A stretch of 64,000 nucleotides of DNA from assembly GCF_000003815.2 (NCBI RefSeq), contig NC_049979.1, positions 20,722,759-20,786,758 of the forward strand. The letters run 5' to 3'. This stretch comes from Branchiostoma floridae (Eukaryota; Chordata; Leptocardii; Amphioxiformes; Branchiostomatidae). Position numbers and translations under genes: made by a program. Below are positions 14,501 through 62,043 of this stretch, in pieces. Position 1 is the stretch's first letter, and every line of letters begins with the position of its first letter. The notes under the pieces were generated by a model that did not search any database, was not told the DNA's origin, and was given only the letters and a program-made list of their open reading frames with translations.

Positions 14501-14514
14501 ACGAGTCCAACTGA
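13885..14514 (+). CDS. Unknown intronless basic, Ser-rich protein
   Basis: One uninterrupted frame of 209 residues, starting at ATG 13885 (MEPYTLRYVLKLNDRVARG). A longer frame begins upstream only at a GTG and the paralog starts at this same ATG. The N-terminal 40 residues are helical-looking and basic. The middle is Ser/Thr/Asp-rich (SSDDSGDDVTTSESSG). The C-terminus has a bipartite-looking nuclear signal (RQKRRREEDE) and an acidic end (DVDYDADDESN). There is no signal peptide or membrane span. A small intronless nuclear regulator is my inference; I considered IER-like immediate-early proteins but could not align the hallmark N-terminus. Its inverted paralog lies 1.5 kb upstream. Confidence 0.65.
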   Translation: MEPYTLRYVLKLNDRVARGLAWQHYESRKTARMSIRPSKPAGNVNFTPLPLSTTQTPGFSGGERSSVARELLMGLSASPALQNSSDDSGDDVTTSESSGSARCRGLTRMTVCAVRPASRNHLLVIPDTSNSSNKRPAVSFGRRRAVVKRSTRGEQRCETTGGNETVDLIYTDGCLNRQKRRREEDESEVTPCAKRHLADVDYDADDESN

Positions 14515-39809: not shown

Positions 39810-40639
39810 ATTGCATTACACTGTTTCATATCAATGTCAAACGCACTATAGAAAATGTAGAACTCAGAAGATACGCTGTCAAATCAAACCGCCATTTTCT
39901 GTCCCACCAAAACAAACTTGCCCGGAAAGTCGCGACGCTGTCCCGTTGTCATGGCTCACTCGACAACCACATCATGAAGTTTTAATGTGAACCAGAGTCT
40001 CAGTCACGTTCTTTAGCTCTGTTAGCGATGTCTTTGGGCTGTCAGTTCCACTACAGTGACATATGGGTCCCCGGGAGGGACATTTGATACGGTGTGAGGG
40101 AGGTACTTGAGTCTTGGGTTCCAAAAACACAAAAATATCCGGAAAGTTTACTCACTAAGGGTGCTATCCCAGCAGGCCATTGTGCAGATTCGTCCACTTA
40201 AGTTATGGGGGTTACTTGTATTGTGTGCAATGAAAACGTTTCAAGTTTCTAGTTTATCTTGGGCTGTTTTATATTTTTATCGGCAGAGCGTTACTGAAAT
40301 GAATAACCTCGTCATTTCTTTAACGTTATATGTGACGAAGTTTGCACTTAACGTAACTTTTCTTTTACATTTCCACCCCCTGCCATGGATAAGGCAGTGG
40401 AATATTCAATTGCAACAGGTGAACAGATCTGAAAACAATTGCATGTTATGCACTTGAATTAAACTCTCTTTACATGCGTAACCCCGAGAGAAATATTCTT
40501 TTGAGCAAATGAAGCAAAACTACTCAATCTCCTTTATTTTCCTTTGTATTGTTTTTTATTGCAACATATATTTACAAAACATGGTGGCATGGGTGGCGAC
40601 ACACTCAAGTCGTAACATACATTAGACTAGTTCCTCCAC
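39810..40639. other. Upstream region of the IQ-motif gene
   Basis: No coding gene. GTTGTCATGGCTCAC at 39945-39959, about 135 bp upstream of the minus-strand start codon, loosely resembles an RFX X-box. CCGGAAAG nearby is ETS-like. Both are weak inferences. Confidence 0.3.
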
Positions 40640-43020
40640 CGATGACGAATACAAGCACATGGGTAAATAAATACATGAAGACAAAACAAAAGAACAAATA
40701 AGCAAAGCATCGAGACATAATTTACAAATGAAAAGTCTTCGGTATCGAAGCAATTGGTATCTAACGTTACCAAGAAAGTTTGCACCAAGGAGGTTTGCAC
40801 ATACATTAATATTTGGAGATTTTGGCCGAGGACAGAAAGGAAGACCATTTAAATGCAACTACTAAAGATTGTCCATATCAAAACCCACCCGTCTTTTTTT
40901 TAATTGCCGATGAGGGAAGCTCTCTGTTGATGAGTGTCGTTTGGGCAGTGTAGCAGAAAGTGACAAATGCTTTCACATGGGTTACCACAAGTTCAAGCTG
41001 GGCTAACAACAAGATTACGGATGCATGAGCAAATTCTGATTTAAACTGTGGGTACCAAGACAAAAACATGAGAGTAAAGCGCAGGGGTAACGGGGGACCG
41101 AAGTAAAAAAAAAAGAAGAAGGACGGGCCGGGGCGCACAGATTTGATCAATTTTGTTCTGACTGACATGCTTTTAAATAGTGAAGGCTCAACGAGCGATC
41201 GGCTCGGCATAGTCTGGTTGTTCCAATGGTAAGTAGCGTAGCGAACAAGAGATCTTTTGAAACGATTTGTATCACATATCGTTATGGGTATATGACTATT
41301 TTGTTTGTTGCGTAGATCGTAGTGAGTGGAGTCAAAACCAAAATGTGGTATCAATTCTACCGTGTAAATAACTGTGGAACCAGTCAAGAATTGGCCCTAC
41401 CACCCTGTTTCGTTGTAGCTTAAATATCAATCCTTGATGCCAATATAAGGGCAAACAAGTTTTAAGAAACGGTTAGCAACATTGTCCCATCCATACGCTT
41501 TGGAGATATCTATCTCAGAAATATACAATTCTACCTCAGCAGCTGAGGTTTCAAAATCGAAAAGATGTACACCAGTCAGATAATCAAAGCGCAGTAGGCA
41601 GGCATTAGCGTCGTCAATTACTGGCTGGAGAGAAAAGTATTTGTTGAATCTAGAACTGAGTCTAGATCTATTACAGGGGTGATAAATAAGTCCTCGGCCT
41701 CACCTAGAAATTATAAGCACAACTCAGATTTCGAACCCTAGTTGTCAAGTATAAAGTCTTTTATGAATGTGTACCGAAATTCAAGTTATTATGATCAAGG
41801 AGGTTAAAAAAAACTCATTGTTATGATCATTAGCAGGCGACACCCAGTAACGGTAGGTAAGAGCAAGAAGGAGAAAAAAACATGGACGCCAGAGGTGCGC
41901 AGGTTAACTTGCGCTGCTTAAAGCCAGTCACACGCTTCTTTTTACTTGAAATGCGAATGGAATCATTATCAAACATTTTGGCAATGTCTTTAAAGAATTT
42001 ACAGCATGGAGAACTCGACCCACACATGTCTGATCACAATTCACCCTTGTTTCTCTCGCCACTTACCTACTGATTTTCAAGAAGACGTGACCTGGAAAGT
42101 AATGACTGCAATGATTTGAAATTTAGAGGGTATTGATAAAAGGCTTCATACAAGTTAAGTTCTGCCTTGAGTTGTGATTATTATTTCTGGGTGAGGCCGA
42201 GAATTTTTCCCTTGTAACAACGTACTTAACAATGTGCCACCATGCCAAATATTTTTCTGCCAGTGGTAGAGTGATAAAGGATTTATTTAACGAGTTTTAT
42301 TTCTTATTTTACGATAGGAGGCCCAGAATGAGAGACTGTCAAACAATTAACATTTTTGTGTGTATCTTATCTCTTTTGTTCATTAGTCTTCGCAGCTGGG
42401 CGACATCCAGGGCTTATCGCGGGGTATAACAGTGATGTTTCTGTGTGGAACACATTTACTTTCAGTCTCAATAATAAGGTTAACTGACATGTTATTGGTT
42501 TCGTCAACGGTATTGCATTGGCAAACTTCAAACCATTTGGGTCTGTACAGGTTTTTGCAAGAATGGCTTGATCAGTTTTGGTGTAGCCCCAGACTGTTCG
42601 GAATATGGGAGCTTAATAGATTAACTTGGGAGCTTAATAGATAAGTTAGAATTAATGATGATGGGGCAATGGTGGCACCCAGACAGAGGAGAAAGCACAG
42701 AGGCTGATAGGACTAAATTGGAAGCATCTGCGAATAAGATATCAATTAGCGAATGCGAGCGAGTTAAATCGCACATCGGTTCCTTCATCATTTGCTTTAT
42801 ACTTAAGACTCAACATTTCTGAGAAGTCCATTTTGAACCAATTGACGTGTTAGGGTCAAGAGGCCACCAAGCGTGTTTGGCTTTAAAGTCCCCTGTGGTG
42901 ATAATTGTATAACATTGTGAAGCCCCAGCTGTCAAAACGTAATCACGAAACGAATCAACAGAGAATGAGTCTTGCGCAGGTGGCCGGTATACGTAGTTAG
43001 CCTGGGTTTACACAATCTCT
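40640..43020 (-). mobile_element. Decayed non-LTR retrotransposon (LINE)
   Basis: Reading the minus strand from high to low coordinates: near 42905-42840 lies TTGDFKAKHAWW, matching the GDFNAKH block of LINE endonucleases. Near 41650-41440 lies FNKYFSLQPVIDD then ISKAYGWDNVANRFLK, the start of a reverse transcriptase domain. Near 41330-41220 lies YDLRNKQN then FKRSLVRYATYHWN, the C-terminal YxLRN...FxxRxxxxWN pattern. The polymerase core between 41440 and 41350 is missing and the frames contain stops. It is an old, internally deleted copy. Confidence 0.7.
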
Positions 43021-43096
43021 CGCTGGCTGGGGTTAATGGCCTCCTCTAGATGGTGGCAACTGTAAGGCTGGCCGCTAGGAGCGCGATTTTAATCAG

Positions 43097-43375
43097 GCTA
43101 GCCGGTAGTCACTTAAGGTAGCAGAACACAGTTTTCCGCCTATAGAGTTTCTTATTGTTAAGGGCCAGAAGGTGACTGGCTTCGACGCGGAAAAACATGA
43201 AGTAGAGTGCACTTTAGGAATACCAAAAACGGATATGTTCGAGTTCAGAGTACATACAAGCCACAAAATATTGAAAAACGGCAAATACGTCGGCGTATCG
43301 CCTTCTCAAGCCCACTTTGAAACGTCGCTCTGCGGAGGTCAGCCGGCTCGCACCAGAAGAGTAGTTGCGTAATGG
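43097..43375 (+). other. Open segment, nature unclear
   Basis: A frame of about 66 residues (TGFDAEKHEVECTLGIPKTD and onward) is open here between the LINE relic and the first channel gene. It has no clear splice acceptor, and its donor side does not match the phase of the 43690 exon. It may be a repeat fragment. I recognise no domain. Confidence 0.25.
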
Positions 43376-43689
43376 GGCGCATTTATACACGAAATAGAGA
43401 ACGTTTACAATCCAAATCATACAGTCAAAGACATTTTAAATGTTCAAAGACATTTGGGAATCCATGCGTTCTGAGATTCGTTTTATCTCGCGGATCGATG
43501 AAGTGGTCAATGTGGTGTTGTAGTGGGTAAGGCTCACAGTGAAGAAAGAGTTCAAATTTCGTGGTACGATGTGGAGTCCTCACAGCATACGTACACCTCC
43601 GGACGCCATCTTGTCATTCAACTCAACAAAGTATTCAGGTTTTTCACAGCCTTCATATTGTATAATTGTATCTTGCTTTGTCCTTTCAG

Positions 43690-46600
43690 CAAGGAATACC
43701 GAGGCCGAAAGTGATTCTTCAACATCCAAGACCTTCCAGTGTACCAGGGAATACGAAGGCAAATGAAGAGAAATCGTCGAATGACAAGAAAGGGAAACAG
43801 ACGGTTTCACAGCTGAGCAAGCAGTTCTGTGACGCCACGACATGTCACGGACTGAACCGTATCGGGTCGGCGCAGTCCACGGCGGCTCGCCTGATGTGGC
43901 TCGCGCTCGTGCTGACCGCTGCCGCCTTGACCATGTGGCAGGGGAGCAGACTGTTGACCAAATACATGTTATATCCCGTGCAGGTCAAGGTCAACATCGT
44001 CGTGAACAACAGGCTCGTGTTCCCCTCGGTAACCGTCTGCAATCAGAACAGACTCAGGAAGTCGAAGTTGAACGGATCACGTTTCGAGCCCCTCATAGAG
44101 ATCGACGACGAAACTATCGGATCGGTTGACTTCCTGGAGATGGACAGCCAGGACGGACCGCTAGATGGCCTAGATGCGACAAATAGATCCAGGAGATCGA
44201 CAGATTCAGACGGACCGGAGTCCGCGATGCAGATGCTGGAAAAACGACGTCAGATGCTGAAACGGAAAACCAGAGCTACTTCCCCCTGCCCCAAGGCTCC
44301 CGTGAGTGGGGTAGATATAGTTTGTGTGGACGTCAAGCACTCGATGGACAATGCCTCCGAGGGCTGTGCTCAAATAGGCATGCAGCTATGTTCATACCAT
44401 CAACTCCGAACGGCGCACGCTAGAGGCATCCGCGATCCGCTGCCGCTGGAGCAAGGCAACTCCTGGCGTTTCTTCAGTCGTCCCGGATGGGACGTCACTC
44501 TTCAGTCCGAATGTGGACCTCGCTATGAGAACGTCGTGGATGAATGTTACGATGGCATGTTCCCACACACTCCTCGTGCGGGGACTGAGGGATTCCTGTA
44601 CTGCTGTAACAAGGAGTTCATCGTGACCGACGAAACCTTCACCGATCATCAGCAAGCAAAACAGGCCTGCGATGATCAAGGGTTTCAATTGTGCTGGCCT
44701 CAACAGCTCAAGAAGATTTTTACGGATGGGTTTCGGGGTGAGACATGGGGCTTTGTCAGTGATCCGACGAGACAAGCACACCTCAGTCCGTGCGGCTGCC
44801 GACCACAAAAGATGTGCTACCAGTTCACGTACGGCTACGTACTGAAGACCAGACGAAACATGCCAGCATACTGTTGTCAGCAAACATACGCATTCCAAGA
44901 CGTGGACTCTTCTCTGCAAAACCGCGCTGCCGACACATGCTCATCAAAGAACTTTAAATTATGCCCCATCCAACGATTGGTAGACGTACACAAAGCAGGA
45001 ATCCGATTTGACAACTGGGGCTGGGTGAAGCACCCCGGTAGAATTGCTCTCCTTGGCGAACGGTGTGAAGAGAGCAACGATACGGAATGCTATCAGCAAC
45101 GTGTGGCTTACTTGGACGACCAACCTGAAAGCACTAATAAATCTCATTGCTGTTCACCAATGATTGCCATCTTTAATGACCGGTTTCAAGACGAAGATGA
45201 TGCATCAAACTCCTGTGATCGACAAGGCCTTCAGCTTTGCACTCTCTCTCAGCTGGTGACAGCTTATCGCAGAGATACCCCGATTGAAGACTTCGGTTGG
45301 GCAGCCGACACCAGAGACGGCACCTACCAAGTCATCGTCACCAAGTGCAGCTCAGGCCCGAACTGTTACAACCCGATACCTGTTACTCCTGGTGACAGAT
45401 TCCCAGCATATTGCTGCCAATATGTGGAGGCGAAGATCGCTATACCACCAAGAACACAGTGTACCAACATATTTAGGGGCTGTAGCGAGCCTCTAGGTAT
45501 GGAAGATGGTCGAATCTTGGATCAACAGATCACTGCTTCCTCCAGTATGGGTAGAAACGGCACGCTGCCATACCAAGGCCGCTTGAACGGGTGGGGTGCC
45601 TGGTGGGCCGATACCATTTCAGATAGCAATCTGGGCAGCAATGAGTGGTTCCAAGTTGATTTACTGAAGCCGATGTATGTGACGGGACTGATGACGCAAG
45701 GGGTGCGGAAGGGCTTCATCATAACCTACAAGCTTTTGTACAGCAACGATTCTGCTGGTCCGTGGATTGTGTACATGGACAAGAGCAGTAACCGGGATGA
45801 GTTGTTCAAAGGCGTAACCCGTCTGGGTGAAACGAGCCACCAGCATTTCGCCTACCCGATCTTGACGAGGTACGTCAGGTTACAGCCTCACTTCTTGTCC
45901 CACAAGTACGCCACCCTGAGGATGGAACTGGTCGGCTGCGACCCCGAGACGTGTGCCGATCCTAGGAGCACGGACGAGCGTGGGGTGGTGAACGTATCAT
46001 TGGACTGCCAGGGACGGGACTGCTACGTGGGCAACGGGGAGAACTATCGAGGGACGAAAGGAACGACGGAATCTGGAAGAGGCTGTCAGCAATGGGCGCG
46101 ACATGACCCACACCCACACTGTAACGTCACCAGTGACACCTATCCAGCAGCGTGTCTCGTAAACGACTATTGCCGCAACCCGGACGGCCGACCAGGCGGG
46201 CCGTGGTGCTTCACCAAGGACCCGGACGTTCCGTGGGAATCCTGCGGCGTCGGAAAATGCACACTGCAGGAAAACGAGGTCTTAGACAAAGCTGCGTGGA
46301 GAGGGTACATTGAAAAATCGAACACCTCCGACAACAGTGACCTGTCCGAAATCCTTCCTCCGGCCACTCGACAGGAGCTGCGGAAGCTTGGACATCAGAA
46401 GAACGACTTCATCCTGCAGTGTAGCTTCGACAAACAGCCATGCTCACCTGACGACTTTATCATGTCACAAGATGCAAAGTAAGATTCGTTTATTTTCCAT
46501 AAAATGACGTGTTATCTTACGGTTAATTGCTGTTGGATGTCGTCTGCTTGAGATAGGTTCTCTTTTCCAGTTTCTAATAGAGTCTATCATCTCGCCTGTT

Positions 46601-47541
46601 CTTTCTGTAGGTACGGCAACTGCTACACATTCAACAGCGGTACCAATGGAGTGGTGCGCACAACTACCAGGTCAGGAACTAGCTATGGTCTTAAACTTAC
46701 CCTAAACGCCGAGTCAGCAGAATATTTGGGTCTCTTCGGACAAAGGGTGGGCGCTAGGGTCACCCTCCATCCGGTCAACTCCACTGCCTTCCCGGACACG
46801 GAGGGCATCGACGCTCCTCCCGGAACTGCCTCGTCCATCTCGGTGAGACAGGTGGTCATCACTCGCACGCCTTGGCCGTACGGACAGATGGACTGTACCA
46901 ACAACAACGACGACTACATGTCGCTGTACAGCGGGAAGATCTACACCCTGCGTATGTGTGAGAACACCTGCTTACAGTGCGCCATCATCAACCGGTGCCA
47001 CTGCGCCACTGACATGATCGACCTCACACGAAAGAAGGCCATCAGAGAATGCTCCCCGTTGTTTGCCAACTCCACTGTCCCCGTATGCAACATCGCTAAA
47101 TCGCGAGTTCAAGCGTGCGTCAGGGGCTTGTGGAAGCGTTTCCAGCGAGGGGAACTCGAATGTAAGTGTGACCAGGCCTGCAAAGATGAAATATTCGAGC
47201 TCAGCCTTTCGTCCTCCTTGTGGCCGTCCGACCGGTTCGTTCCGTACATCTTGAGAGACCTGCACATGATCCAGGACATCCGGAGAAACAACCTTCCGCG
47301 GAGTATGCAGGAGGTGAGGGACAACCTGGTCCGGGTCGAGATTTCCTACAAGGAGCTGAACTACGAAAGCATCGCGGAAGAGTGGAACTACAAAGAAGAG
47401 AACCTCCTCGGAGACATGGGCGGTCTACTGGGCTTTTACATAGGCGTATCTATCATCACCATTTGTGAGTTCGTCGACTACGTCCTGGATCTGCTTGGAC
47501 TACTCTGCAGAAAAATCAAAAGAAGCATAAAGAGAAGGTGA
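43690..47541 (+). CDS. DEG/ENaC channel with Link-like, discoidin and kringle insert
   Basis: Coding exons 43690-46478 and 46611-47541 (1239 residues). The first exon is unresolved: an in-frame ATG at 43666 lies in the acceptor tract TCCTTTCAG and is rejected. Order: cytoplasmic HG gating motif (TTCHGLNRIG), TM1 (43888-43956), post-TM1 block FPSVTVCNQN, two furin-type sites (RSRR 44185-44196, RKTR 44263-44274), and four Cys-rich Link-like modules (44285-45420). Then come discoidin/F5-8C (about 45460-45955), kringle (46018-46260), the ENaC motif LQCSFDKQPCSPDDF, YGNCYTFN, the palm, and TM2 with filter GVS (47443-47451). It is probably an amiloride-family Na+ channel subunit in the plasma membrane. 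The modules sit in the finger region. A close paralog lies downstream. Confidence 0.85.
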
Positions 47542-47544
47542 TTG

Positions 47545-47568
47545 AACAACAACAACAACAACAACAAC
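47545..47568. repeat. (AAC)n microsatellite
   Basis: About eight AAC triplets immediately after the channel gene's stop codon, in its 3' UTR. Confidence 0.9.
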
Positions 47569-47641
47569 TAAACTTTAGAACTTTTGGCAATGACGGTAAC
47601 TGGTACTTTAACATTTTCGACAATTTATTTTTGAATGATCG

Positions 47642-47947
47642 ATAGGGTATCAGTAGAATGCATTCCTCACATTCCTAAATGGACAAAGCCCAAATTTCTC
47701 TTCCAATGTTCTGCTTTATAATTATTTATCTCCCACTTTGTCCAGTCCCCTTTTCCTCTGAGGATCAAACACTCATCCAGAGGGCGTTACACCTTCGTGT
47801 TGACACGAGGGTATCTTGAGCTAATATCCCCAGACTTTTTTTACATTCTTTGAACTAAGCTAGCCTTGTTAAAGATTTCATGGGTGAAAATAGGCCCAAA
47901 GACAATGTTGTTTGGCCTTTCAGGAATGCATTCTACTGACTCCCTAT
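47642..47947. mobile_element. MITE with 26-bp inverted ends
   Basis: ATAGGGTATCAGTAGAATGC at the left end pairs with GCATTCTACTGACTCCCTAT at the right end with a few mismatches. It overlaps a second foldback. Confidence 0.7.
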
Positions 47948-48276
47948 ATACTAAATGAAATACGCAATGTACAGATACTAGTAACTCTCTCATGATGTAA
48001 GAAGTGCAGAAGATTATAGGCCCTTGAATTTAACAAGCTAAGAGAAGCTTTCCATATGATCATGACTCGTCATGATTTTTTCAGATGACGCTATTGTAAA
48101 AGATAGTTGTGGAGGAAAATCTGCTCGCAACTACTGTTTTCTAGGTTTGAGCTATTGTCACCCTTAAGATCGTTAAAATGGCAGATTCAAGAAATGTGAA
48201 GAAGTCTGGGGGTATTGCTCAAGATACTCTCCTGTCAAGAATAACGCCCTCCGGCTGGGTGTTTGGTCCTAAGTAG
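47756..48276. repeat. Second inverted repeat overlapping the MITE
   Basis: The block at about 47756-47836 (GAGGATCAAACACTCATCCA to CCCCAGACTT) recurs inverted at about 48205-48276 (AAGTCTGGGGGTATTGCTCA to GTTTGGTCCT). The overlap with 47642-47947 suggests one element inserted in another or a composite end. Confidence 0.65.
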
Positions 48277-49333
48277 CTGTTGGAACGGCAACACTTTGAG
48301 ATGTGATCGGTAGAAGTCGCTTCTACACTGTACTGAGGTACCGATGCAGTTGTGAAGGGGTGTGGGCTTAATGTTATGAGTCTTTACATGTTGGACCACT
48401 TGAGCTTGATCTTATGGATGACAATTTCTACAAGAATATTCCTTGCAGTATTAAAACAAGCTGCTAAGGAGCTCAAAACTGCTTCTTTTCGACCCCAAAA
48501 GCTATGTATCTGCCGCCCAAAAGGCAAGTCCACAGCGCCCATATCCAGAGCGGGACGTATTAAAACTGGACGCCCAATGCAACCCACAGGGAAAGCTGCC
48601 AGGAGGCAAAAAACTTTAAATCTTCTCATTCCATATGAAGGCATATCATGAACAATACTTTGACAATACATATGCATCAAATGTACAATATATTTACTTG
48701 ACAATCGGGCAAATAAGAAAAGAAAATGAAACTATAGAATCTAAAGCATAGAATTGCCTTATATCGTTGGTCATTGTAAAAAGATGATGTTGTCCTTGCA
48801 AAGCAGCGCTAAATGATAATCTACGTCATCCTTAAGACAAAGACTGTGTGACCAAAGTATGTCGATCGTGATGTCATTAAGTATTAGCCAATCAGTGTGC
48901 GTGTTCGTACCTGTATCATGCATCGGACGTCAGGCATTGTATGTGTACTTTACGTTTGTTAGTTGGTTACTTTGTTTGTGGACAGGATGAGTCTATGGAA
49001 TACGAATTTTCAATAATTTGACATGAGTAAAAATGTCATTAGTGGAAACATCTGTTTTCCGGCCATATGATGAAGAATATGTTGAATTTGCCAGATAGTG
49101 AGCCTATCAATGAGGTGGTTTGATATCAGCGGTTTTGTAACACATGTGGGGATGACCACTGAATCATAACATAAAAGATAGGAAATATAACACACTAAAC
49201 AGTGTAGCGGGTCAGTTGTAATCGAGGCAGACTGAAGGAATAATTTCGTCCACAAACAAAGGAACTCCATGATGGTAAATTGTAAGAGATAAGTACCACT
49301 TTACGTGAAGTGCTTTACTTGATACGTGTTGAT

Positions 49334-49702
49334 TAGGAGTGGGTACCGGTACGGTGTACCGATGCAAAACCGGTTTTTCTTGTTGGCCCGGACCGGACAA
49401 ACGGGAACTGACAAAAATCATCAGTGGACCAAATGTCGGATCTAATAGAAAATGAACAGATCATGCCGGCACCTCGGTGGCTGGCGTTCATGTGTTTTGG
49501 GGCTTATTGGTCAAAGAAAATAGCAAGAGTGAAGTAGAGGAGAGCTAATAGTCATTTTCAGAGGCAGATTCCTTTGTAGTGAAATGGACCAATGTTTTGA
49601 GTCATTCACAAACAATTAGATTATAGGTCCGGACCTGGACCAGATCCTCTGGACCTGAAACGAACCTGTATCTGAATTATCTGTACCGGTACCGACCCCT
49701 AG
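49334..49702. mobile_element. MITE with GGTACCGGTAC ends
   Basis: TAGGAGTGGGTACCGGTAC at the left and GTACCGGTACCGACCCCTA at the right are inverted with two mismatches. The interior keeps GGACCGGA and GGTCCGGACC words. No clear target duplication could be read. Confidence 0.75.
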
Positions 49703-50340
49703 TGTCTGCTGTATACCCGTATTAGCTGTATATGTATAACGTTATCTCTGAACGTTATGTATTTCGTATAATGTTGTATCACATGCCCTGCAATCATAAC
49801 GTTTAGTGGTAGAGGTTGCGCATTAATTCTGAGCACTTTTTCCCCATTGATGTAATAGCTATTATGCCCCTGTCACATAGTATAAACATCGATAAGCTGG
49901 CGAGTATACAAGCTCTAAATAACATAAAATAGCAGTATTACGACCGATGTTCTCTCGATAATTGCTACATTTTTAGGGATCGACTGATATCACAGGTCTC
50001 TAATCCTCGTCCACTGTGATGGGGTATATTTTCGGGTGAAAAACACTGTCGAGTCGTTTTAAATTCGGTGACTTTGGGGCGAAAAACAAACACCGAAGGT
50101 CGTGAACTATGTGACAGGGGTTCTATACTTGTCAATATAGGGTGTTTATAATTACTTGACTCATGTAAACCAACCAACATAGCAGAGGCGAGAAAAAACG
50201 GCGAGGGTATTTTGTGGAAAATGTTTGAAACGAATATTTTTCTAACCGGTCAACATGCATGTATTTGTCATTGGGCAGCATTAGGGAGTATTTTAACCAA
50301 AAAAATAAGGTCACTAACCATTCCGAGTTAGCATTTGTAG

Positions 50341-50536
50341 CGACATGAATTATGGGTAATAGGTCAAAGGTGAAGACACCTGACTTGTGAAGACCATGAC
50401 AGTTCTATTGATACTACATCCATATTCTGGTCTTGACATCATCAGCAGTCTTGACTTTTGTCTCGACTTGCCGTGAATATCCAGACCTGTTTTGTTTATG
50501 TCTTCACCTTTGATATATTACCCACAATTCATGCTG
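50341..50536. mobile_element. MITE-like inverted repeat
   Basis: CATGAATTATGGGTAATAGG and GTCAAAGGTGAAGAC at the left are matched inverted by GTCTTCACCTTTGATATATT and ACCCACAATTCATG at 50500-50533. Short non-coding interior. Confidence 0.7.
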
Positions 50537-51177
50537 GTCATCATAGCGCCGACCATCTCCAAATGTAGACAGCTAGGCAAAATAGACATGAATATGCAAA
50601 TACATTTGTATTGGCGGACATGCAGCCATTTTCTCATTGGTCAAACCGGTAATTGCCATGCTATCATTGGATGAACTGTTATTTGTTATTGTACTGTATG
50701 CATCGATAATAAAGTTAGTTTTAGATGAGAGAAAGCGCGGTGTGCATCATTTAAGTTTGATACCAACCTTACCGAAATTATGCTGACAGTAGGGGCATAA
50801 AACCAAATTATACTATGGATAACCTGTCAGCTATTAGAACTTGAAATCGTCATGTCCCAAACTTAGCTAAAAAGTATTGAGTCTTTTGTTTTGTAGGCAA
50901 GGGTACGTACTGTCTGACATGATATTTGACTACGTCTACGAGGCCTATGTTTTTGGCATGTGTTTTTGTTTGGGTTGGGTTGTCATATGCCATGTCATAT
51001 GACATACGTCTGAATCTTGACTAAATTTTGGATATGTCTCTGCCAGAGTCTGACCTATCGTTAACCGGTGAGTTGGGGGAGGGGGGCGGTGTCTGTATCT
51101 ATGATGTCATAGAATAACATGTCTGCTATGAACATTGAGGGAAAAAACTACACTACGTTATCATACATGAATTGTGC

Positions 51178-51735
51178 ATTAAATCCATCTTTTGTATCGC
51201 TATGCGATAGAATTGCAGTTGAAATTTATACCCAATTGCAAAAGGCATAACCCCTAAGACTATACAGACATGTACGAAAAGGAAACAAAATACATGAAAT
51301 CGTCGCGGGGAAATACAAATCTTTACAAATATCAACCACAAAGAAGATTATTCGCCCTCCCACAGTGAGAACATCCATAGCTTACTGTCTTTGCTCCCTA
51401 ATCCGGCCGCCTTTGGAGCTTCCTCCTACCAAATCGCCCCAATCCGCTCGATGATTGCCATATAAAAGAAATAGAAGTAAGACATAACGTTATTCTATGC
51501 AATTTTTGATTTCCCTATACGACAGAATTAATTGTGTTTGATATTTCTCCAAGAAGCACATGACCCCTGAACTATATAAACATTGTGTAAATCTTTACAA
51601 ATACAAATCATAAAAAATATAACTCGCTCTCGAACAGCGGGATTATCCTTAGCCGGTTGTCTTTCCTCGCTAATCCGACCGTCTTTGCAGCTAATCCGTA
51701 CCAAATCTCCCCACATCCACCCGATGATCCTTTCT
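51178..51735. repeat. Diverged direct duplication of about 300 bp
   Basis: The segment 51178-51470 resembles 51500-51735. Shared landmarks in order are CTATNCGANAGAATT, AAATCTTTACAAATA, CTAATCCG, ACCAAATC and CGATGAT. Divergence is high, so the duplication is old. Confidence 0.55.
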
Positions 51736-52282
51736 GCCCTTCTGAACGACTGTTACACACAAGAAACCTTCGTGCAGTAGTACATTGAAAGACCCCTTAG
51801 TCTCCTTTGCTGAGGATAACGTGACCAACGTTGACCTTTCTGCCCAAAAGCTGCCCAAATCCATATATTAGATCGAATCCGCTTTTCAAATTACATCTGC
51901 TTGACGTAAGGTGCTTTAAAGCTTCTTCTGTTTGTGTTAATTGTGTTACAGAAAGATTTACCATATTAAATGGGTGCGATGAAGACAAATGTTGCATCAT
52001 CAGTATAAATATATACCATATTTCTAAGAACTCCATTGAAAATTGAAATCTGAAGGAATATCTTACGTGCCGGATGTCTATTACTCGTGCATCATCAAAA
52101 TCTTCTTATCTCGCCAGGGATTGGTCGTAAGAAGAAGATAAAACTTAATGACGATAAAGAAAATCCGATAGCTTAATTTTCTTCACACCTGATCCAGAAT
52201 TGTCGTTTTCGCTGGACAGAGAGGACTGGCCATCGCAAAGCTCTTCGACGGGAACAGGTTTTCTGTTCTCGGATGTCCGAAA

Positions 52283-55200
52283 ATGTTTTCCAGCGTTCAC
52301 CCGATCAAACTGGGCCTTGATGCGAAGGTAAGAGTACTGTATTGATTTGTATTTACTTCATTGTGTAGTACGCAACTTTAGGCGCTGTGACACTGTAACT
52401 TGTACACGTATTTGCCGTTCAATTAGCTACCTTCTCTTACCATAGCTAGCAACACTGCTTAAGGTAATGATGACTATGAATTGATTGAAACAAAGACTGT
52501 CAGCCGCAAACCGTGAGGGGCATTTGGCGCAGGAAACATCTTAAAATATATTTGCCACATACAACAAGATATAGTTTCAAGCTTTAACTCGGGTGTTATT
52601 TGCTTTACATCTGCACAGAAAGTAGTGGGGCTAAACTCTTTAATGGCAAATGCGGTTCTGTTTTTTCGCCATACAGGGTGACAAGAAAGGGCCCAGGAAG
52701 ATATTCGTCATCCCAGTCGCCACTAACAAAAATGAGAAGGAGGAGGAAAGGCCACGGAACATGACGATTCCGCAGTTGTCCAAGAAGTTTTGCAGCGCCA
52801 CCACATGCCACGGTCTCAACCGCATCGCTCAGGCGCAGTCCCCGGTCGCCCGCTTCATCTGGCTGAGCCTTGTCCTCACCTCGCTGACGTTGTTTTTACT
52901 CCAGGCTAATTTGCTCATCACCAAGTACATGGACTATCCAGTACAGATCAACGTCAACATTGTCGTCAATCACAGACTCCCGTTCCCTTCGGTGACGATC
53001 TGCAACCAGAACAGAATGAAGAAATCGGAACTGAACGGAACGCGCTTCGCACCGCTAGTGGACATCGACGAAGAAACCGTGAGCACAGTGGCTTTTCTGG
53101 GGAATGATGGAGGTGCAGTGAGCAGTCAGGGGGAAGGGTCAAGTGAGCAAACGGTACGGATGAAGAGAGGAATACCAGCAGCAGAAGATCGCCATAACCT
53201 TGGCAAAGACAGGCCCATTGTTGCTCGAAAACGCCGAGCGTCACCAGGGTGCCCCAGCGACCCCGATAACCCGTACGGAATCGTTTGCCTGGACGTCAAG
53301 ACCTCAATGGCAAATGCCTCCAACAGATGCGCTACCATCGGCATGCAGCTTTGCACGTACGACCAACTACGAAAGGCGCATGCCATGGGAGTCCGAGACC
53401 CGCTGACCAGCGACGACAACGACGGTTGGCGATTCTTCAGCCGAAATGACTGGGACGTGACGTTACAGGACGACTGCGGGCCGCGTTACGAGAAGGTCGT
53501 GGACGAGTGTTATGAAGGAATGTTTCCCCATACGCCTCGGCCAGCTACCCATGGGTTCCTGTACTGTTGCACCAGAGAAATGCTTCGAACCACCGATAAA
53601 TACAACACACACGAAGAAGCTGAACAAGCCTGTGAAAGCCAGCAATTTCAGCTGTGCACCCCGAAGCAGATGGCGAACGCTTATGACAATGGCATCCGAG
53701 ACGAGAAGTGGGGGTTCATCAGCCAAGCAGACAAACAGGCCCACCTCGCACCGTGCGGGTGTCGACCAGATGACGAATGTTACCACCTAGCGTTCTCCTA
53801 CATTCAGCGTCAAAGCCCTTCCCTCCCGGCGTACTGCTGCAAACGAACATACCAGATGCGAAACGACTACTTCAGCCACGAAGGAGCAGAGAACGGCTGT
53901 TCTTCAATAGGATATGATATCTGCAGCCTAAAGCAGCTTGCCGTAGTCCACGGCTTAGGCTCACGTTCTGACGCTTGGGGATGGGTTCAAGAAGAGAACA
54001 CGATCTCCCGGCTTCATGGGACTTGTGTGGAAGCTAACGGATTCCGCTGCTACGAGAATGCTCTGCAGTACCAGACTGCTGCACCAGGAGGGATCTACCG
54101 GCTACACTGCTGCACCCCCACCTTTGTACAAACCACTCAGACATTCTCCAGCTATGGCAACGCGATGGATACTTGTAACAAGGATGGTAAGCAGATCTGT
54201 ACATTGACCCAGCTGGCGGAAGAATATAAGAACGGAGTTCGGACAAACACCTGGGGCTGGGCTGAAGACCAGATGCAGGCCGTCGTGGGGGAGTGCGACG
54301 CTAACCTTGACTGCGCCAGTAACGTGACCAATGCGATCCCTTACGTAACAGCGGACGGGACGGCCAAGCAAGCCTACTGTTGCGAGTATGTCCGAGTATG
54401 GCCGGAACTCCCTCCTCGGACCCAATGCACCAACCGATTCAAAGGGTGCAACAATCCTCTTGGGATGGAGAATGGTGTTATCAAGGACTACCAAATCACG
54501 GCTTCATCTACGGACGGGCGGAACGGGACTCAGGCCCACTACGGCCGCTTGAACGGGCCGGCTGCGTGGTGGTCTAACGGTGTCCCACAAGGGGTGCTTG
54601 GGATCGACGAGTGGTTCCAAGTAGACTTACTAAAGCCGATGTACGTCACAGGTGTCATCACCCAAGGACTGGCAAGAGCCTTCATTTTAACATTCAAGAT
54701 TCGCTACAGTAATGACACGGGCGGGCCTTGGTTCGTGTACACTGACCCGTACGGAGGACGTGATGAGTTGTTCAAGGGCGTCTCCGCAGAGGACCAAACA
54801 GGTCATCAACACTTTGCCTTCCCGATTCTTGCCAGGTACATCAGGTTCATGCCTTGGTTCATGTCAGAGTTTATCTCGCTGAGGATGGAACTTGTCGGCT
54901 GTGATCCCGAGACCTGCTCCGACCCGAAGAGCACGGACGGACGCGGCGTCGTCAACGTAGCCCTAGACTGTCAGGAGAGAGAGTGCTACCTCGGCAAAGG
55001 AGAGAACTACCGCGGCACGAAGAAAACGACTGAATCGGGACGAAGCTGCCAGAACTGGGATCGACACTACCCGCACCAACACTGCAACATCACCAGTGAC
55101 ACCGACCCGGACGCTTGCCTGGCGAAAAACTACTGTCGCAACCCGGACGGTAGACCAGGCGGGCCGTGGTGTTACACAGTCGACCCCGTCATCACCTGGG

Positions 55201-57309
55201 AGTATTGCGGGGTCGAGAAGTGCACGGAGAGAGACGACATCGTGCTGGACAAGACGGCGTGGAGAGAATACATCGAGCGGTCCAACACCTCCGATTTCAA
55301 CGACCTGTCTGATCATCTTCCCCGGGCCACGCGGGAGGAGCTGCGTCAACTCGGACATCAGAAGAACGACTTCATCCTGCAGTGTAGCTTCGACAAACAG
55401 ACCTGCTCACCTGACGACTTTGTGTCTACCCAGACTGAGAAGTAGGTAGTACTATAACTTATCCATAAAGAGAGAAGAAGCCGAAGCTGTAAATGGTAGA
55501 CTTCGATACTACATAGAAGAACTTTATTGCACGACAACTGTAGAGGATACAGTGTTTGGCAACTTGAACATACAATACATACAGAACAGTTTAACTACAT
55601 GAGTTACTAGTATCTAAAAATCTAAGAGAATTATCTATTTTACACATGGTATATTATATTTACAATCAGGCTAGCATTATGTGCTGGTTTATGATAGTAT
55701 AATATTGTCTCGTTTTTTAAATGAGTTATATATAAATTGACCGACATAGGCAGATATATCAGCAGGACATGATAGTAACATATTAAACATTTCTGTCTTG
55801 GTAGGTGGTAACATTGTATCAGATTTTCATTTTATAGACTGTAACATTTTTTGTCTCTCTCTATCATAAGTTGGACAATCCATTATAAAGTGAGATCATA
55901 TGTATATTCTTGTGAGTTGTCTTTGCTACCGTGTGTAGAAAAAAAGTGTAGAACAAAATTTCATCCAATCAAAATCAAGGTATTGAATTTGGAAAAAAAC
56001 AAATCAGCAAGTATTTTTCCCTGGCACGATGGCATGATTACAGGTTGCAAACAATCAGCTTTCATTGAATAGATAGAAATTGTAATCGGATAACAGAGTT
56101 TAATTTGGACCAAATGCATTATGTGGATCATCCAGAAAATATAAGACTCCCTAAACTATACTTGGTGCGTCACTTGGTATTCCATCCACACTGTCAGTGA
56201 GACGTATGTCGCTTGTAATTGCAGTGTTTTTGTGTTGCTCTGCCGTGATGCGGATCAAGGGAAAGTTAGATGCGAAATGTTCCTCTCCTGTTAGTTTAAA
56301 AATCTGTAACTTATCCCATCTATCTCACAGGTATGGCAACTGCTTCACGTTCAACTCCGGACGTGATGACAAAGAATGGGTGACCACCAGGTCCGGCTCA
56401 AGCTACGGTCTGAAGCTCACCCTCAACCTGGAGACGGCAGAGTACCTCGGTCTGTTCGGCAACAAAGCCGGCGCCAGGGTCAGCATCCACCCCGTCAACT
56501 CCACACCGTTCCCGGAAACCGACGGCGTCGACGTCCCTCCCGGCATGGCCACGTCCATCTCGGTCAGATCCCTGGTCATCACGAGGACGCCCTTCCCTTA
56601 CGGCGGTGGGGACTGCACGGCCAACGTGGACGAGGCCGTGTCGCTGTACGAGGGAAACAAGTACTCCTTCCGCCTGTGCGAGAACAGTTGCTTTCAGTGC
56701 CAGGTCATGCAGAACTGCAGCTGCACCACGGACTTGATCGATTTGAGCAAGGTCGAGGCAATCCAAAAGTGCAACGACCAGTTCCAGGGTGCCCCCGTCC
56801 CCATCTGCGACCTCGCCAATCCCCGGGTCCAGGCCTGCGTCAAGACCCAGTGGAAGCTCTTCGAAAGCGGTGAGCTGAACTGCTCCTGCAACCAAGCCTG
56901 TCGCGACGAGGCCTACGAGCTAAGCATCTCCTCCGCCATCTGGCCGTCTCGCCCGTTCGAACCGTACATCCTGAGAGATCTACATATGATCCAGCAGTTG
57001 AAGAGGCGAAATCTTCCCCGGTCCTCTGAAGAGGTGCGCGACAACTTAGTACGAGTCGAGGTGTACTACGAGGAACTCAACTACCAGAGCATCAGCGAAG
57101 AGTGGAACTACAGGGAGGAAGATTTCCTCAGTGATCTCGGCGGTCTTCTCGGACTGTATATCGGTATTTCCTTCATAACCCTTTGCGAGATCCTTGACTT
57201 TGTTCTCGATATGATTAAACTACTGATGAAAAAATGCTTCGTACTGAGAATGAAACAGGAATCGCGCAAGTTCCAACAGCCTGCTGACGACGGTAAAGCA
57301 AATGAATGA
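52283..57309 (+). CDS. DEG/ENaC channel with Link-like, discoidin and kringle insert (paralog 2)
   Basis: Exons 52283-52327, 52677-55441 and 56331-57309, with matching phases, give 1262 residues. Exon 1 (MFSSVHPIKLGLDAK) ends at a GTAAGA donor and joins GDKKGPRK in frame. An in-frame ATG at 52650 lies inside the acceptor region and is rejected. The domain order is identical to the upstream paralog: HG motif, TM1, FPSVTICNQN, furin consensus sites RMKR (53157-53168) and RKRR (53226-53237), four Link-like modules, discoidin, kringle, LQCSFDKQTCSPDDF, and KYGNCFTFN at the last intron. It ends with the palm and TM2 with filter GIS (57163-57171). It is probably a Na+-channel subunit. Whether it partners the paralog is unknown. 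Confidence 0.88.
55442..56330. other. Last intron of channel paralog 2
   Basis: An 889-bp intron, against 132 bp at the same position in paralog 1. The segment near 55510-55870 (AACTTTATTGCACGACAACT and on) resembles a LINE 3' tail. That insertion may explain the length difference. Confidence 0.45.
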
Positions 57310-58937: not shown

Positions 58938-59174
58938 CTAGCCGTCGTATAAACATTTGGTCGCTGCCAAGAAGAAAATATTCAGGCAGAAGAATTTAAC
59001 ATTCAGGACAAGTCTGACATAAAGCATAACAGCTAAGCAGTAAGGCAACGCCTTTTCTGCTATCAAACATGGTGAACTACCTCAGGGGACAAGTGTGAAA
59101 AGGTGACAAAGCCATGAAGAACAAAGTCAACTATTTAGTTAGTTCCTTATTTGTGTTCGGTTACAGTCGAAGCC

Positions 59175-62043
59175 ATGAGGGCGGTCTGTTTTCTTCTGGC
59201 GATTTGTGCCGTGAGTGTGTTGCCCTGTTCGTCTGCCTGTCCGAAGTACTGCAATTGTAGCGACTTCGGCAACGAGTACACGGTGTATTGTCGCGGAGAA
59301 AACATCACTGCTATCCCACGGGACATTCCAAAGAACACGTCACGATTGGATGTCTGTAAGTACGTGTTATTATCATCTTTAGAAATCTTCTATGTGCCGT
59401 GGTTTATTATGGGCCGAAACCCCGAAAGTGATCCTACCTTTGTTTTCAATGGCATATTAAAAAAAAAAAAAAAACTATTCTATATAGTCAAAACGCCATT
59501 GGCATTGTTTGGATGGACTGATTGACTGATTAAACCTTTGCTTATTCATGAGAAGCTCAAATCGGCCCGCAGGCCACTTATCATTGAGGTCATGAGGATA
59601 GGCGTCAAAATACATTGAGGTCATGAGGAAAGGCATAAGAATACAAGGAATACATGCATTACATCATCGCATCAAATGTACAAACACATACCGTTACACA
59701 TTTCACATCTTTTTGAAGAATACTACTGTTTTGAAGAATATTACTGTGTCGAAGGTTCAACGTATGCTCATATGAACATAAATCCTTCTCATTTCTGCAG
59801 GTTTTACCCCAATCACCATGCTACGGAAAGGCGACTTCGTTGACATGCCCAAACTCAAACAGTTGAACGTTTGGTGGAACCTCAACCTGACCATGGTCGA
59901 ACTGGGAACCTTCGACAATCTACCAACCATCACGTCACTCGGACTGTTCAACAACTCCTTCACCAAGCTACCGACCGGGCTGTTCGACAGCTTAAAGAAC
60001 CTGAAGACTTTTGACGCTCACAACAGTAAGCTGGAGACGATCCAACACGGTCTATTCACCGACCATCCTACCCTACAAGAGATCAGATTGCCCTTGAACA
60101 ACATTACGGGGCTGGAAGATGCCGCTTTTGGTGGCCTTCCTCACCTGACCTCCTTGTATCTCAGTTCCAACAGCCTAACGTCTCTTAACCCGTCCGTCTT
60201 TGAGGGTTCGCCTAAATTGAAATCTTTGGATGTTGACGATAACGCCATTACCGCTATTAGTAAAGATACCTTTGCTGGCACCAACTTTGAGTTGTTGTAT
60301 CTCAATAGAAATGCCATCAATACCGTAGATGTCGACTCCTTTTCCAATCTCAAAAGCCTTCAGTATGTTTCCCTGGATCAAAACAACATCAAAGATCTAC
60401 AGGACGTCTTTAAAGACCTTCCCCAACTTCAGTCTGTTTCCCTGTTTGATAACAAGCTTACCAGCATCGAGGGTGTCTTCCAAAATCTCCCCAAGCTTGG
60501 CACTCTTTCGTTAAATGGTAATCAAATCACGAAGATCAGCAGCACCACATTCGACAGTGTTCCTGCCATGACGTCATTGAGCCTCAGTAACAACGCCATC
60601 GCTGAGGTGGAAAGCGGGGCTTTTAGAAACCTTGACAGCCTTGATTCACTTTACATTGACAACAACCAGATTCCAGAAATCTCCTTGGCAGGCTTGCATT
60701 CTCTTACGACTCTTACCATGAACGTCAACAACCTGCAGAGATTTCCTACCGACTTGGAAGATGCCAACCAACTCACGTATCTGACGCTGACCAGCAATCC
60801 AATCAAGGAACCGCTGGACGAGCAATTGTCAGTTTTGCACAGGTACGTTTCTCCATGTTTCAAACTTCCATGATACGTGTGGTCTCATCTATGTATTGTT
60901 ATATACTATTGGGATTTTTAATCATAATTTATTTGAATTACATTTTCATCCAGGCTCTCCAGTCTGTACCTGTCTGGCATTACAAGTCTAAAGTTGGCGG
61001 GGACACTGAATCCGAAGGCGCTATGTGGCTTGGATGCCCTTGAAGCTGTGTGGATTAAAGGCAACGAGCTAGTTTCAATCCCACCCACAACCTTCGAGTG
61101 CACACCGTCTATTTCCGGAATATGGCTTTCGAACAATAACCTGACAGAACTGAGTCCCCGCTTGTTCCATGGTCTGACGGAGTTGAATTGGCTGGATCTG
61201 ACAGACAACCAACTGAGCCACCTGGACCCTGACACGTTTGTCGGTCTTGATAAGCTGAGGTCTCTTTCTCTGATTGGAAACAACTTCACCAACATGGCAC
61301 ATGTAGCTCCGGCATTAGCACACCTCCCAATTCTACTGTACCAGACACTGGACAATAACCCATTTGTCTACCTTGGTCGCGACTCCTTCCCAATGCCTAT
61401 GAAGCATGTTAACTCGTTTTCTGTATCCAAAACACACATTCGTGTCATAGAAGAGGGAACTTTTTCTGCAGATACATTCCCCAATCTGACTCGGTTGGAA
61501 CTTGAGCAGGATGATTCTTTGCACTTCCTGCCAGGCAATATGTTGGACGGCCTTGACAACCTCACGTCCATGCTTGCGTACGGCGATCCTTTCCATTGTG
61601 ACTGCCAGCTCAAGGCCTTCGTCACCTGGCTACGCGAACAAGTCAACCCTCCGTACGTGAGCGCGACTTGTGCCAGCCCGCCGAGTCTAAAGGGCAAAGA
61701 CCTGACGGACGTTCCCCTGGCCAGTCTGACGTGTGACTGCCAACAGGTGGAAGTTCCTTCAATCGATACGAGTGGCAGTGATAACTTCACCCGTGAGGGT
61801 CAGACCGCCATGCTGAACTGTAAGGTCTCAGGCTGTCCTGAAGCCGAGTTTTTCTGGACCACCCCAACCGGAGCCATGTTGGCTGTGGAGTCGGGGTTCC
61901 CTAGGATGGAGGTACTGGACAGCGGTACCCTGGTGGTGACAGACGCGAGGGAAGAGGATACAGGGGTGTACACATGTACCGCTGTCAACTACCGCGGGAA
62001 GGCCAGCAAGGAAGTGTCTCTGCATGTAGGCAACAAACAATAG
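59175..62043 (+). CDS. Secreted leucine-rich repeat and immunoglobulin protein
   Basis: Coding exons 59175-59355, 59801-60842 and 60954-62043, phases agreeing, 770 residues. A signal peptide (MRAVCFLLAICAVSVLPCSSA) is followed by an LRR N-cap (CPKYCNCSDF...YCRG), about twenty LRRs of about 24 residues, and an LRR C-cap (FHCDCQLKAF...ATC...LTC). One C2/I-set Ig domain closes the protein (61780-62030; CKVSGC, then DTGVYTCTA). It ends GNKQ with no membrane span or GPI signal, so it should be secreted. LRR-Ig proteins act in neural adhesion and, in amphioxus, have been proposed as recognition molecules; which applies here is not visible. ATG 59175 is used because the upstream in-frame ATG at 59151 precedes the TTACAG acceptor. 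Confidence 0.88.

Follow-up and report, generated by a model that had tools for sequence, protein, structure and literature searches.

Channels of the DEG/ENaC superfamily share a common build. The alpha, beta, gamma and delta subunits of ENaC have an HG motif, two transmembrane (TM) segments, a cysteine-rich palm and thumb and a G-X-S filter, and ASIC channels have the same fold. In ENaC a polybasic pair follows the first palm strand and precedes the remaining finger, which contains the GRIP domain. FaNaC, a further member of the superfamily, is gated by peptides via its ectodomain and is not known to carry adhesion modules. According to PMC8791634, alpha, beta and gamma ENaC carry a PPXY motif at the C-terminus, furin excises residues 206-231 (26 residues) of mouse alpha-ENaC, and the paired cleavage sites of vertebrate ENaC are claimed to have co-evolved with terrestrial life.

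The thought that such channels are held by the matrix has been put forward for MEC-4 and the MEC-5 collagen, for UNC-105 and LET-2, and for N-glycans of alpha-ENaC (PMC10148893 and PMC7958617). The latter, a 2021 study, refers to extracellular matrix tethers proposed for ENaC and to a hyaluronidase-sensitive shear response of delta ENaC with added glycans, and describes knowledge of DEG/ENaC-matrix tethers as scarce (PMC7958617). In these degenerins and in alpha-ENaC a separate protein or a glycan serves as the tether, while in the two genes described below the tether would be a part of the channel chain itself.

The DNA analysed here (the window) is a 64,000-nucleotide stretch of the Branchiostoma floridae genome. 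It contains two neighbouring genes (gene 1 and gene 2) that combine a DEG/ENaC frame with extracellular modules. Their features are collected in Table 1.

Table 1. Features of the two modular channel genes, in window coordinates
Feature	Position	Strand	Evidence or remark
Gene 1, whole	43690..47541	+	
Gene 1 open frame	43666..46482	+	
Gene 1 big exon	43690..46478	+	within the open frame
Gene 1 N-terminus, HG motif, TM1, first palm strand	43690..44070	+	Pfam ASC positions 1-90
Gene 1 motifs	CHG at 43843; FPSVTVCNQN at 44020	+	motif scan
Gene 1 spacer with two furin-type motifs	44071..44280	+	RSRR 44185-44196, RKTR 44263-44274; motifs only
Gene 1 Link-like repeat 1	44281..44604	+	Xlink 14.3 bits alone
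Gene 1 Link-like repeat 2	44605..44877	+	Xlink 26.9 bits alone
Gene 1 Link-like repeat 3	44878..45153	+	no Pfam match alone; included in the repeat alignment
Gene 1 Link-like repeat 4	45154..45417	+	Xlink 24.9 bits alone
Gene 1 F5/8 type C (discoidin) domain	45445..45942	+	Pfam E 1e-15
Gene 1 kringle	46021..46260	+	Pfam E 5e-23, profile 1-79 of 79
Gene 1 linker, ATRQELRKLGHQKNDF stretch, LQCSFD...CSPDDF, end of big exon	46261..46478	+	joint common to types B and C
Gene 1 intron, phase 2	46479..46610	+	GT at 46479, AG ending 46610
Gene 1 last exon: YGNC, palm, thumb, TM2 with GVS, stop	46611..47541	+	Pfam ASC 174-455, E 1.4e-55
Gene 2, big exon to stop	52677..57309	+	
Gene 2 candidate first coding exon (MFSSVHPIKLGLDAK)	52283..52327	+	47600-52660 has three phase-0 ATG candidates, this being the longest
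Gene 2 big exon	52677..55441	+	GT at 55442
Gene 2 N-terminus, HG motif, TM1, FPSVTICNQN, start of spacer	52677..53156	+	Pfam ASC 1-87
Gene 2 motifs	CHG at 52806; FPSVTICNQN at 52983	+	motif scan
Gene 2 furin-type motifs	53157..53240	+	RMKR 53157-53168, RKRR 53226-53237; motifs only
Gene 2 four Link-like repeats	53241..54383	+	Xlink summed 50.5 bits
Gene 2 Link-like repeats singly	53241-53567, 53568-53840, 53841-54113, 54114-54383	+	Xlink 15.7, 26.6, 15.5, 25.9 bits
Gene 2 F5/8 type C domain	54411..54905	+	Pfam E 7.2e-16
Gene 2 kringle	54984..55223	+	Pfam E 3e-26, profile 1-79 of 79
Gene 2 linker, ATREELRQLGHQKNDF, LQCSFD...CSPDDF, end of big exon	55224..55441	+	pair alignment and joint comparison
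Gene 2 last exon: YGNC, palm, thumb, TM2 with GIS, stop	56331..57309	+	AG ending 56330; Pfam ASC 166-455, E 2.8e-60

Channel identity and architecture

Both halves of both genes match the ASC family (PF00858) above its cut-off of 23.6 bits (78.0 and 189.6 bits in gene 1, 79.8 and 205.1 bits in gene 2), and the marks of the superfamily, HG before TM1 and G-X-S in TM2, are found in each. The complete DEG/ENaC frame claimed in the first-pass annotation is present, and at the sequence level both genes are shown to encode DEG/ENaC channel subunits. As read from PDB match scores, ENaC subunits are the best matches for both channel halves: that of gene 2 scores 118, 115 and 113 bits against ENaC beta, delta and alpha and 99 bits against ASIC1, and that of gene 1 scores 112 bits against ENaC alpha and 96 bits against ASIC2. 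FaNaC matches the two halves at 67-101 bits. Unlike alpha, beta and gamma ENaC, neither window protein has a PPXY motif in its translated C-terminus.

Where ENaC has the GRIP domain, the window proteins have a module array. The array consists of four Link-like repeats followed by one F5/8C domain and one kringle, and lies after the first palm strand and before LQCSFD, the insertion site being the one read earlier (between FPSVT and LQCSFD). The block measures 660 and 661 residues in the two genes, somewhat less than the 700 or so first estimated, and the distance from FPSVT to GHQ is 790 residues in both, as compared to 76-93 residues in four short-fingered, module-less relatives from this genome, three of which look ASIC-like by eye. 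Each protein has 60 cysteines, and the big exons are 54% identical. The comparison shows that in the predicted proteins an adhesion head stands in for most of the finger. In the literature searched we found no described DEG/ENaC counterpart with such an architecture, as had been supposed.

In both genes the N-terminal half of the channel, all modules and LQCSFD lie within one open exon, so the earlier view that the modules are in frame with the channel, and nearly all in a single exon of about 2.8 kb, holds. The chance of a 930-codon open frame at the local G+C content is about 5e-18. The last splice join of both genes is K|YGNC, in phase 2. The candidate first exon of gene 2 (MFSSVHPIKLGLDAK, followed by GTAAGA) comprises 15 codons and is in frame with the big exon. 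The big exon of gene 1 has no ATG upstream of TM1, and a search of positions 40500-43680, limited to phase-0 ends and a short list of donors, gave no convincing ATG exon.

Identity of the modules

The Pfam run called ASC, F5/8C, Kringle and Xlink over their cut-offs in both genes, in agreement with the identities first assigned by pattern: Kringle with 81.7 bits in gene 1 and 92.0 in gene 2, F5/8C with 58.4 and 58.9, and Xlink with 47.6 and 50.5. Chance domain calls were considered and judged unlikely, the Pfam E-values being 2e-12 to 3e-26. The relatives of the F5/8C domains in the PDB are the C/b domains of factor V, factor VIII and neuropilin, and those of the kringles are in plasminogen and HGF; all these are soluble or single-pass proteins, not channels.

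The Link assignment had been regarded as the least certain. The Xlink cut-off of 27 bits is passed by the summed score in both window genes and in the type C sequence (63.0 bits), and by none of the eight single repeats of the window, the best of which reaches 26.9 bits and one of which (repeat 3 of gene 1) has no match alone. The label of Link therefore leans on the summed score. In all four type B frames scanned, Xlink scored 16.5-20.8 bits. The Pfam matches confirm that, as far as sequence tells, these repeats are a divergent form of Link. Among 26 Link-like repeats, a set that is not unbiased as it was chosen by a pattern demanding an extra cysteine, none has, at the aligned columns, the CxCGW and following YP/FP present in the five canonical Link domains taken from this genome. 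The canonical hyaluronan-binding residues of the repeats look lost. Some type B repeats and one type C repeat have an insert ahead of the W.

The lysine-binding site of kringles consists of the anionic residues of a DXD motif and a cationic arginine. The window kringles read NPDGR and VPW or ITW where plasminogen kringle 4 has NPDAD and VRW, and a part of this site appears to be lost. The suggestion of a carbohydrate, phospholipid or protease ligand is accordingly weakened for two of these kinds, given Links without CxC and YP and the partly lost lysine site.

A family of modular channels

The first-pass annotation described two genes. Both are real, and the plan is wider: the B. floridae genome has 11 modular loci with three module plans, namely the window pair, five loci at C16:12.25-12.30 Mb, three at C6:22.02-22.08 Mb and one at C16:11.75 Mb. 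With the channel half of gene 1 as query, matches at E <= 1e-10 fall at eleven places, ten of them modular loci (gene 1 itself included) and one a module-less gene on C8; the eleventh modular locus lies elsewhere, beyond these matches. An assembly chimera or contamination was judged unlikely because the 11 loci are spread over three large contigs. In the type B locus L009, the channel half matches ENaC alpha and ASIC1 equally well (135 vs. 134 bits, a tie).

The 3' joint of the insertion is common to all modular loci (ten sequences of types A and B, and type C) and in gene 1 aligns weakly, at the same place, with DRAGH...LSC...CSPEDF of ASIC1 (E about 0.8). The 5' joint is common to the five loci where it was read, both window genes and the three C6 loci, and the C8 gene has the same insertion place without modules. 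One insertion followed by duplication would be the simplest history. Of 678 candidates in the genome 67 were scored; beyond the channel loci these gave single kringles and one F5/8C piece as matches to the array, and no source gene for it.

The fusion could in principle be an illusion of the genomic frame, with the two halves belonging to different proteins that are spliced apart in transcripts. We regard this as extremely improbable in view of the single exon that joins the N-terminal channel half, the modules and LQCSFD in the window genes, of the type B loci, where a single frame of some 1300 codons is open across modules and the C-terminal channel half, and of the modules adjoining a channel at all 11 loci. 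That several copies are pseudogenes of a decaying family is suggested by L016, whose broken frame is split into 798 and 530 codons; this reading is nonetheless very unlikely, as both window genes and L009, L010, L012, L014 and L015 are open, gap-free, over modules and channel half, and dN/dS is low where estimable. In the channel of L017, the place of the modules is taken by roughly a thousand residues of mucin-like, Ser/Thr-rich sequence. A scan for bacterial-type promoters and an Rfam search gave nothing useful.

Paired furin-type motifs in the spacer

A feature absent from the earlier reading, and new here, is a pair of furin-type motifs ahead of the modules, at the place of the activating pair of alpha-ENaC. 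At the motif level, both genes have two polybasic sites around a short finger tract, as in alpha and gamma ENaC: RSRR and RKTR in gene 1 would be 26 residues apart from cut to cut, and RMKR and RKRR in gene 2 would be 23. The second site of gene 1, RKTR, is a minimal RXXR only. In ten family sequences (11,459 residues) R-X-[KR]-R occurs three times, always in the two window spacers. Since these spacers are so basic, a single R-X-[KR]-R is not significant; it arises in 14% of shuffled spacers of gene 1 and 11% of those of gene 2. The type B stretches read, which cover the N-terminal exons in part, have no R-X-[KR]-R, and none was found in the short fingers of the four module-less relatives. In the type C locus, RRKR is located upstream of the Links. 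In a control scan of 29 loci, R-X-[KR]-R was found in three (L017, L019 and L022) of the 22 that have a tail after FPxVT, eight of these 22 tails being type B exons that end within 19 residues.

Proprotein convertases may cut the spacer at both motifs and free a tract of 23-26 residues, as in alpha-ENaC. After such cutting, the head would no longer be joined to TM1 and would stay attached through its C-terminal linker. We propose, tentatively and with considerable doubt, that a chordate ENaC-type channel has a chain-encoded tether freed by double convertase cleavage, which would have evolved in parallel to, or before, the cleavage of vertebrate alpha and gamma ENaC. The claim of co-evolution with terrestrial life (PMC8791634) is touched by a non-vertebrate channel in which paired motifs have a comparable position and distance.

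Proposed gating and selection on the modules

The 660-residue adhesion string, with a plan common to nine further copies, suggests that these channels may carry their own tether to the surroundings. The explanation as a whole, DEG/ENaC subunits with a head that binds matrix or a partner, gating by force or ligand and a spacer cut by convertases, has in our judgement about an even chance of being right. Trimers would carry three module heads above the palm, and these heads might bind the extracellular matrix or a partner at the cell surface. Force or a ligand acting on the head would then move the finger and thumb and so gate a presumably sodium-selective pore. The force gating is suggested by analogy: for ENaC and degenerins an extracellular tether has been proposed, and the head would be a possible built-in counterpart of it.

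Alternatively, the head may be a ligand sensor and not a mechanical tether, with a soluble glycan, lipid or protein of immune or environmental origin opening the channel in a manner comparable to FaNaC. Identity between gene 1 and gene 2 is 75% in the kringle, 67% in Link1, 63% in F5/8C and 62% in the channel half, and falls to 43, 33 and 32% in Links 2-4; such fast-diverging Links in tandem clusters resemble diversifying receptors, and PMC4284660 describes heavy recombination of promiscuous domains in lancelet genomes. We consider this reading rather unlikely, because no sign of positive selection on the Link repeats was seen and dN/dS is below 0.45 in every estimable segment; in the window pair, four segments out of ten (Links 2-4 and the spacer) give no estimable dS, and dS exceeds 2.4 in Link1, F5/8C and kringle. 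Between L009 and L014, dN/dS is 0.07 in the kringle, 0.14 and 0.24 in F5/8C, 0.19-0.27 in the Links and 0.06 in the channel. At the codon level these ratios show the modules to be under purifying selection.

The modules could also serve mainly in trafficking, assembly or spacing within the glycocalyx (adhesion or shielding), with the pore gated by the usual stimuli of the family. The number of N-X-S/T sequons (10-20 in each of ten sequences counted) is consistent with this, as is the mucin-like stretch of L017, as if bulk outweighed identity, yet mere bulk would need no conserved folds, cysteine number or joint, and we hold this possibility to be unlikely.

If the tether reading is true, these channels would offer a natural model, within one chain, for force-from-filament gating. 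With Link-like, discoidin and kringle modules in the finger, such a channel lends itself to tests of one module at a time, and the finger appears to tolerate a large insertion while the pore stays under strong selection. Among the remaining pairs compared, dS between L009 and L012 is estimable in no segment, L012 and L013 give a channel dN/dS of 0.22, the sole trustworthy value as one motif was not located and the borders of their other segments are misplaced, and L009 and L010 have zero changes in the linker.

Results

The first-pass annotation described both window genes as DEG/ENaC channels with extracellular modules inserted in the finger, and our exon reading and translations of both genes agree with this. 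In each gene, a single exon of about 2.8 kb encodes, in order, the N-terminus, HG motif, TM1, FPSVT strand, a spacer, four cysteine-rich repeats, an F5/8C domain, a kringle, a linker, and LQCSFD...CSPDDF, and is followed by a phase-2 intron with GT/AG ends and a last exon encoding YGNC, palm, thumb, and TM2. Each product contains 60 cysteines. In a Pfam check of both genes, ASC (the DEG/ENaC domain), Xlink, F5_F8_type_C, and Kringle exceeded curated cut-offs, although the Link assignment depends on summed scores, as single repeats 1-4 remain below the Xlink cut-off of 27 bits (14.3, 26.9, none, and 24.9 bits in gene 1; 15.7, 26.6, 15.5, and 25.9 bits in gene 2). The inserted block is large, as proposed, but measures 660 and 661 residues instead of about 700. 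The FPSVT to GHQ distance is 790 residues in both proteins and 93, 76, 91, and 85 residues in module-less DEG/ENaC relatives of the same genome (L050, L051, L057, and L023, respectively; seven loci were tried, three of which had no measurable stretch).

Features of the modular DEG/ENaC genes and of other loci noted
Feature	Location	Strand	Description
Gene 1, big exon	window 43690-46478		type A: Link x4 - F5/8C - kringle
Gene 2, big exon	window 52677-55441		type A: Link x4 - F5/8C - kringle
Type B	five C16 and three C6 loci		by eye: Link - F5/8C - degenerate kringle - Link x3 - F5/8C - kringle, then channel C-half
L016	C6:22.071-22.080 Mb		type B copy
L044 (type C)	C16, 11.75 Mb		five Xlink stretches (63.0 bits), two F5/8C, kringle start; channel exons downstream
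Kringle	G000:C4:2872029-2872256		frame of 1674 codons
L017:803-4450	C2:34.71 Mb	+	DEG/ENaC N-terminal half (ASC 1-99), RRKR, then about a thousand in-frame Ser/Thr-rich mucin-like residues
L019	C13:13.98 Mb		DEG/ENaC relative; RKKR shortly after first palm strand
L022	C2:29.69 Mb		DEG/ENaC relative; RLKR and RERR shortly after first palm strand
L028:6566-8242		+	frame of 559 codons near DEG/ENaC exons
Next gene downstream	window 59139-62043	+	LRRNT, many leucine-rich repeats, weak LRRCT, Ig domains
Open frame	window 11931-12425	-	MEPYxLRYVLKLNDRVARGLAWQHYE...
Open frame	window 13819-14514	+	similar to the preceding, opposite-facing

The window occupies C1:20722759-20786758 of a genome that comprises 513 Mb and 431 contigs. 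An ASC profile search of this genome, followed by reading of the loci, revealed three module plans, types A, B, and C. The open frame of type B comprises about 1300 codons. Four of the eight type B loci (L009, L012, L014, and L015) were scanned with Pfam, which called ASC, a single kringle, and two F5/8C stretches in every one; Xlink reached 16.5-20.8 bits there, below cut-off, and no second kringle was called in these four, so the names "Link" and "degenerate kringle" in type B come from eye and alignment. L015 is devoid of the first Link, and L011 and L013 contain runs of N. The frame of L016 is broken into 798 and 530 codons, which reflects either a pseudogene or an assembly error. The kringle start of type C covers positions 1-33 of the 79 in the profile (28.0 bits, below the cut-off of 34.3), where the frame apparently ends at an intron.

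The channel half of gene 1 used as a query (E <= 1e-10) matched eleven places, ten of them in the A and B loci, gene 1 among these, and one in a C8 gene that lacks modules. The module array matched A, B, and type C loci over many modules; its remaining matches were single kringles, except one F5/8C piece on C7 (68 matches; 67 of 678 candidates were scored, and a weak or distant module source might thus be overlooked). The 3' stretch W...S(N/Q)TxD...A(T/S)(R/K)xE...GH(Q/R)K...LQC(S/T)FDK occurs in every one of the ten A and B sequences; type C shares it from TDDYSDIS onward. The 5' stretch (R/K)KSxLxG(S/T)R...L...(I/L)D occurs in gene 1, gene 2, and all three C6 loci; a 5' joint was looked for in the C16 loci and not found. 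In the C8 gene, stretches resembling the 5' and 3' ones are both present, and no modules separate them. These common joints, together with the C8 gene, suggest that the modules probably entered the finger once, in the part that follows the first palm strand and ends at the stretch preceding LQCSFD.

All modules of the window genes lie within one exon, and 148 of the 150 kringles among the matches listed lie in open frames of at most 223 codons, one of the two exceptions being that of gene 2. The simplest source of the modules would be a cassette without introns, which may have arisen by retrocopying. The C4 kringle, besides that of gene 2 the sole one of the 150 listed in such a long frame, may belong to another intronless modular gene.

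Identity between genes 1 and 2 is 53% from the N-terminus to the first palm strand, 34% in the spacer, 67%, 43%, 33%, and 32% in Link1 to Link4, 63% in F5/8C, 75% in the kringle, 71% in the linker, and 62% in the channel C-half. Their dN/dS is 0.05-0.26 in the six of ten segments where it is estimable, the values being rough in three (dS > 2.4). Between L009 and L014 (dS 0.7-1.8), dN/dS is 0.27 in the N-terminal Link, 0.14 in F5/8C a, 0.22 in the degenerate kringle, 0.19 in the Links, 0.24 in F5/8C b, 0.07 in the kringle, 0.07 in the linker, and 0.06 in the channel; between L009 and L010 it is 0.07-0.44. Constraint on the kringle and linker is about equal to that on the pore; the Links drift.

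The spacers contain polybasic, furin-type motifs: RSRR and RKTR in gene 1 and RMKR and RKRR in gene 2, with putative cuts, as read from the motifs, 26 and 23 residues apart, respectively. R-X-[KR]-R occurs three times in 11,459 residues of the ten A and B sequences (counted without type B N-terminal exons and with L016 represented by its second piece), each time in a window-gene spacer; type C carries RRKR. At least one such motif appeared in 14% and 11% of trials with shuffled spacers. The motif is not exclusive to the modular family, since among the tails of other DEG/ENaC loci, 3 of 22 (L017, L019, and L022) hold one or two. According to PMC8791634, paired sites in the finger GRIP domain of vertebrate alpha and gamma ENaC (RSRR and RRAR in human alpha ENaC) free an inhibitory tract, the paper's table gives no such sites for lampreys, and paired cleavage is argued to have co-evolved with land life and lungs.

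Discussion

In known Link modules, the Tyr of the YP motif forms part of the site for hyaluronan. Five canonical Link domains from this genome carry a CxC before GW and the YP after it; both are absent at the aligned columns of the 26 Link-like family repeats, which have a cysteine at the position of the canonical Ala, a feature that is partly due to choice, as the repeats were picked via a pattern containing it. The window-gene kringles have NPDGR...VPW or ITW, whereas plasminogen kringle 4 has NPDAD...VRW, residues with roles in lysine binding, and because of this replacement lysine binding by the former is doubtful. With the Link motifs absent and the kringle residues changed, classical hyaluronan or plasmin-type ligands are not predicted; a different glycan or protein is a possible ligand.

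In DEG/ENaC channels, the finger and thumb pass signals to the pore. An extracellular matrix tether through N-glycans has been proposed for ENaC, and hyaluronidase lowers the shear response of glycan-added delta ENaC (PMC7958617); the tether model also appears in PMC10148893. An adhesion head of 660 residues, carried on the finger, would amount to such a tether encoded directly in the channel gene. We regard a built-in tether as the leading reading, at about even odds with all other roles combined, ligand sensing and spacing among them.

Searches of the freely accessible ENaC, degenerin, and amphioxus literature listed no title or abstract that describes a DEG/ENaC with such modules. The word "kringle" is absent from the main text of PMC10507113 and PMC9949801, both with trees including cephalochordate DEG/ENaCs, and the former mentions uncharacterised cephalochordate channels. 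An unremarked protein-database entry for such channels is likely.

L017 encodes a second giant finger, different in kind from the modular one. The L028 frame resembles, by eye, a non-LTR reverse transcriptase. The two opposite-facing frames in the window, which had no Pfam match, represent an unknown gene duplicated in inverted orientation.
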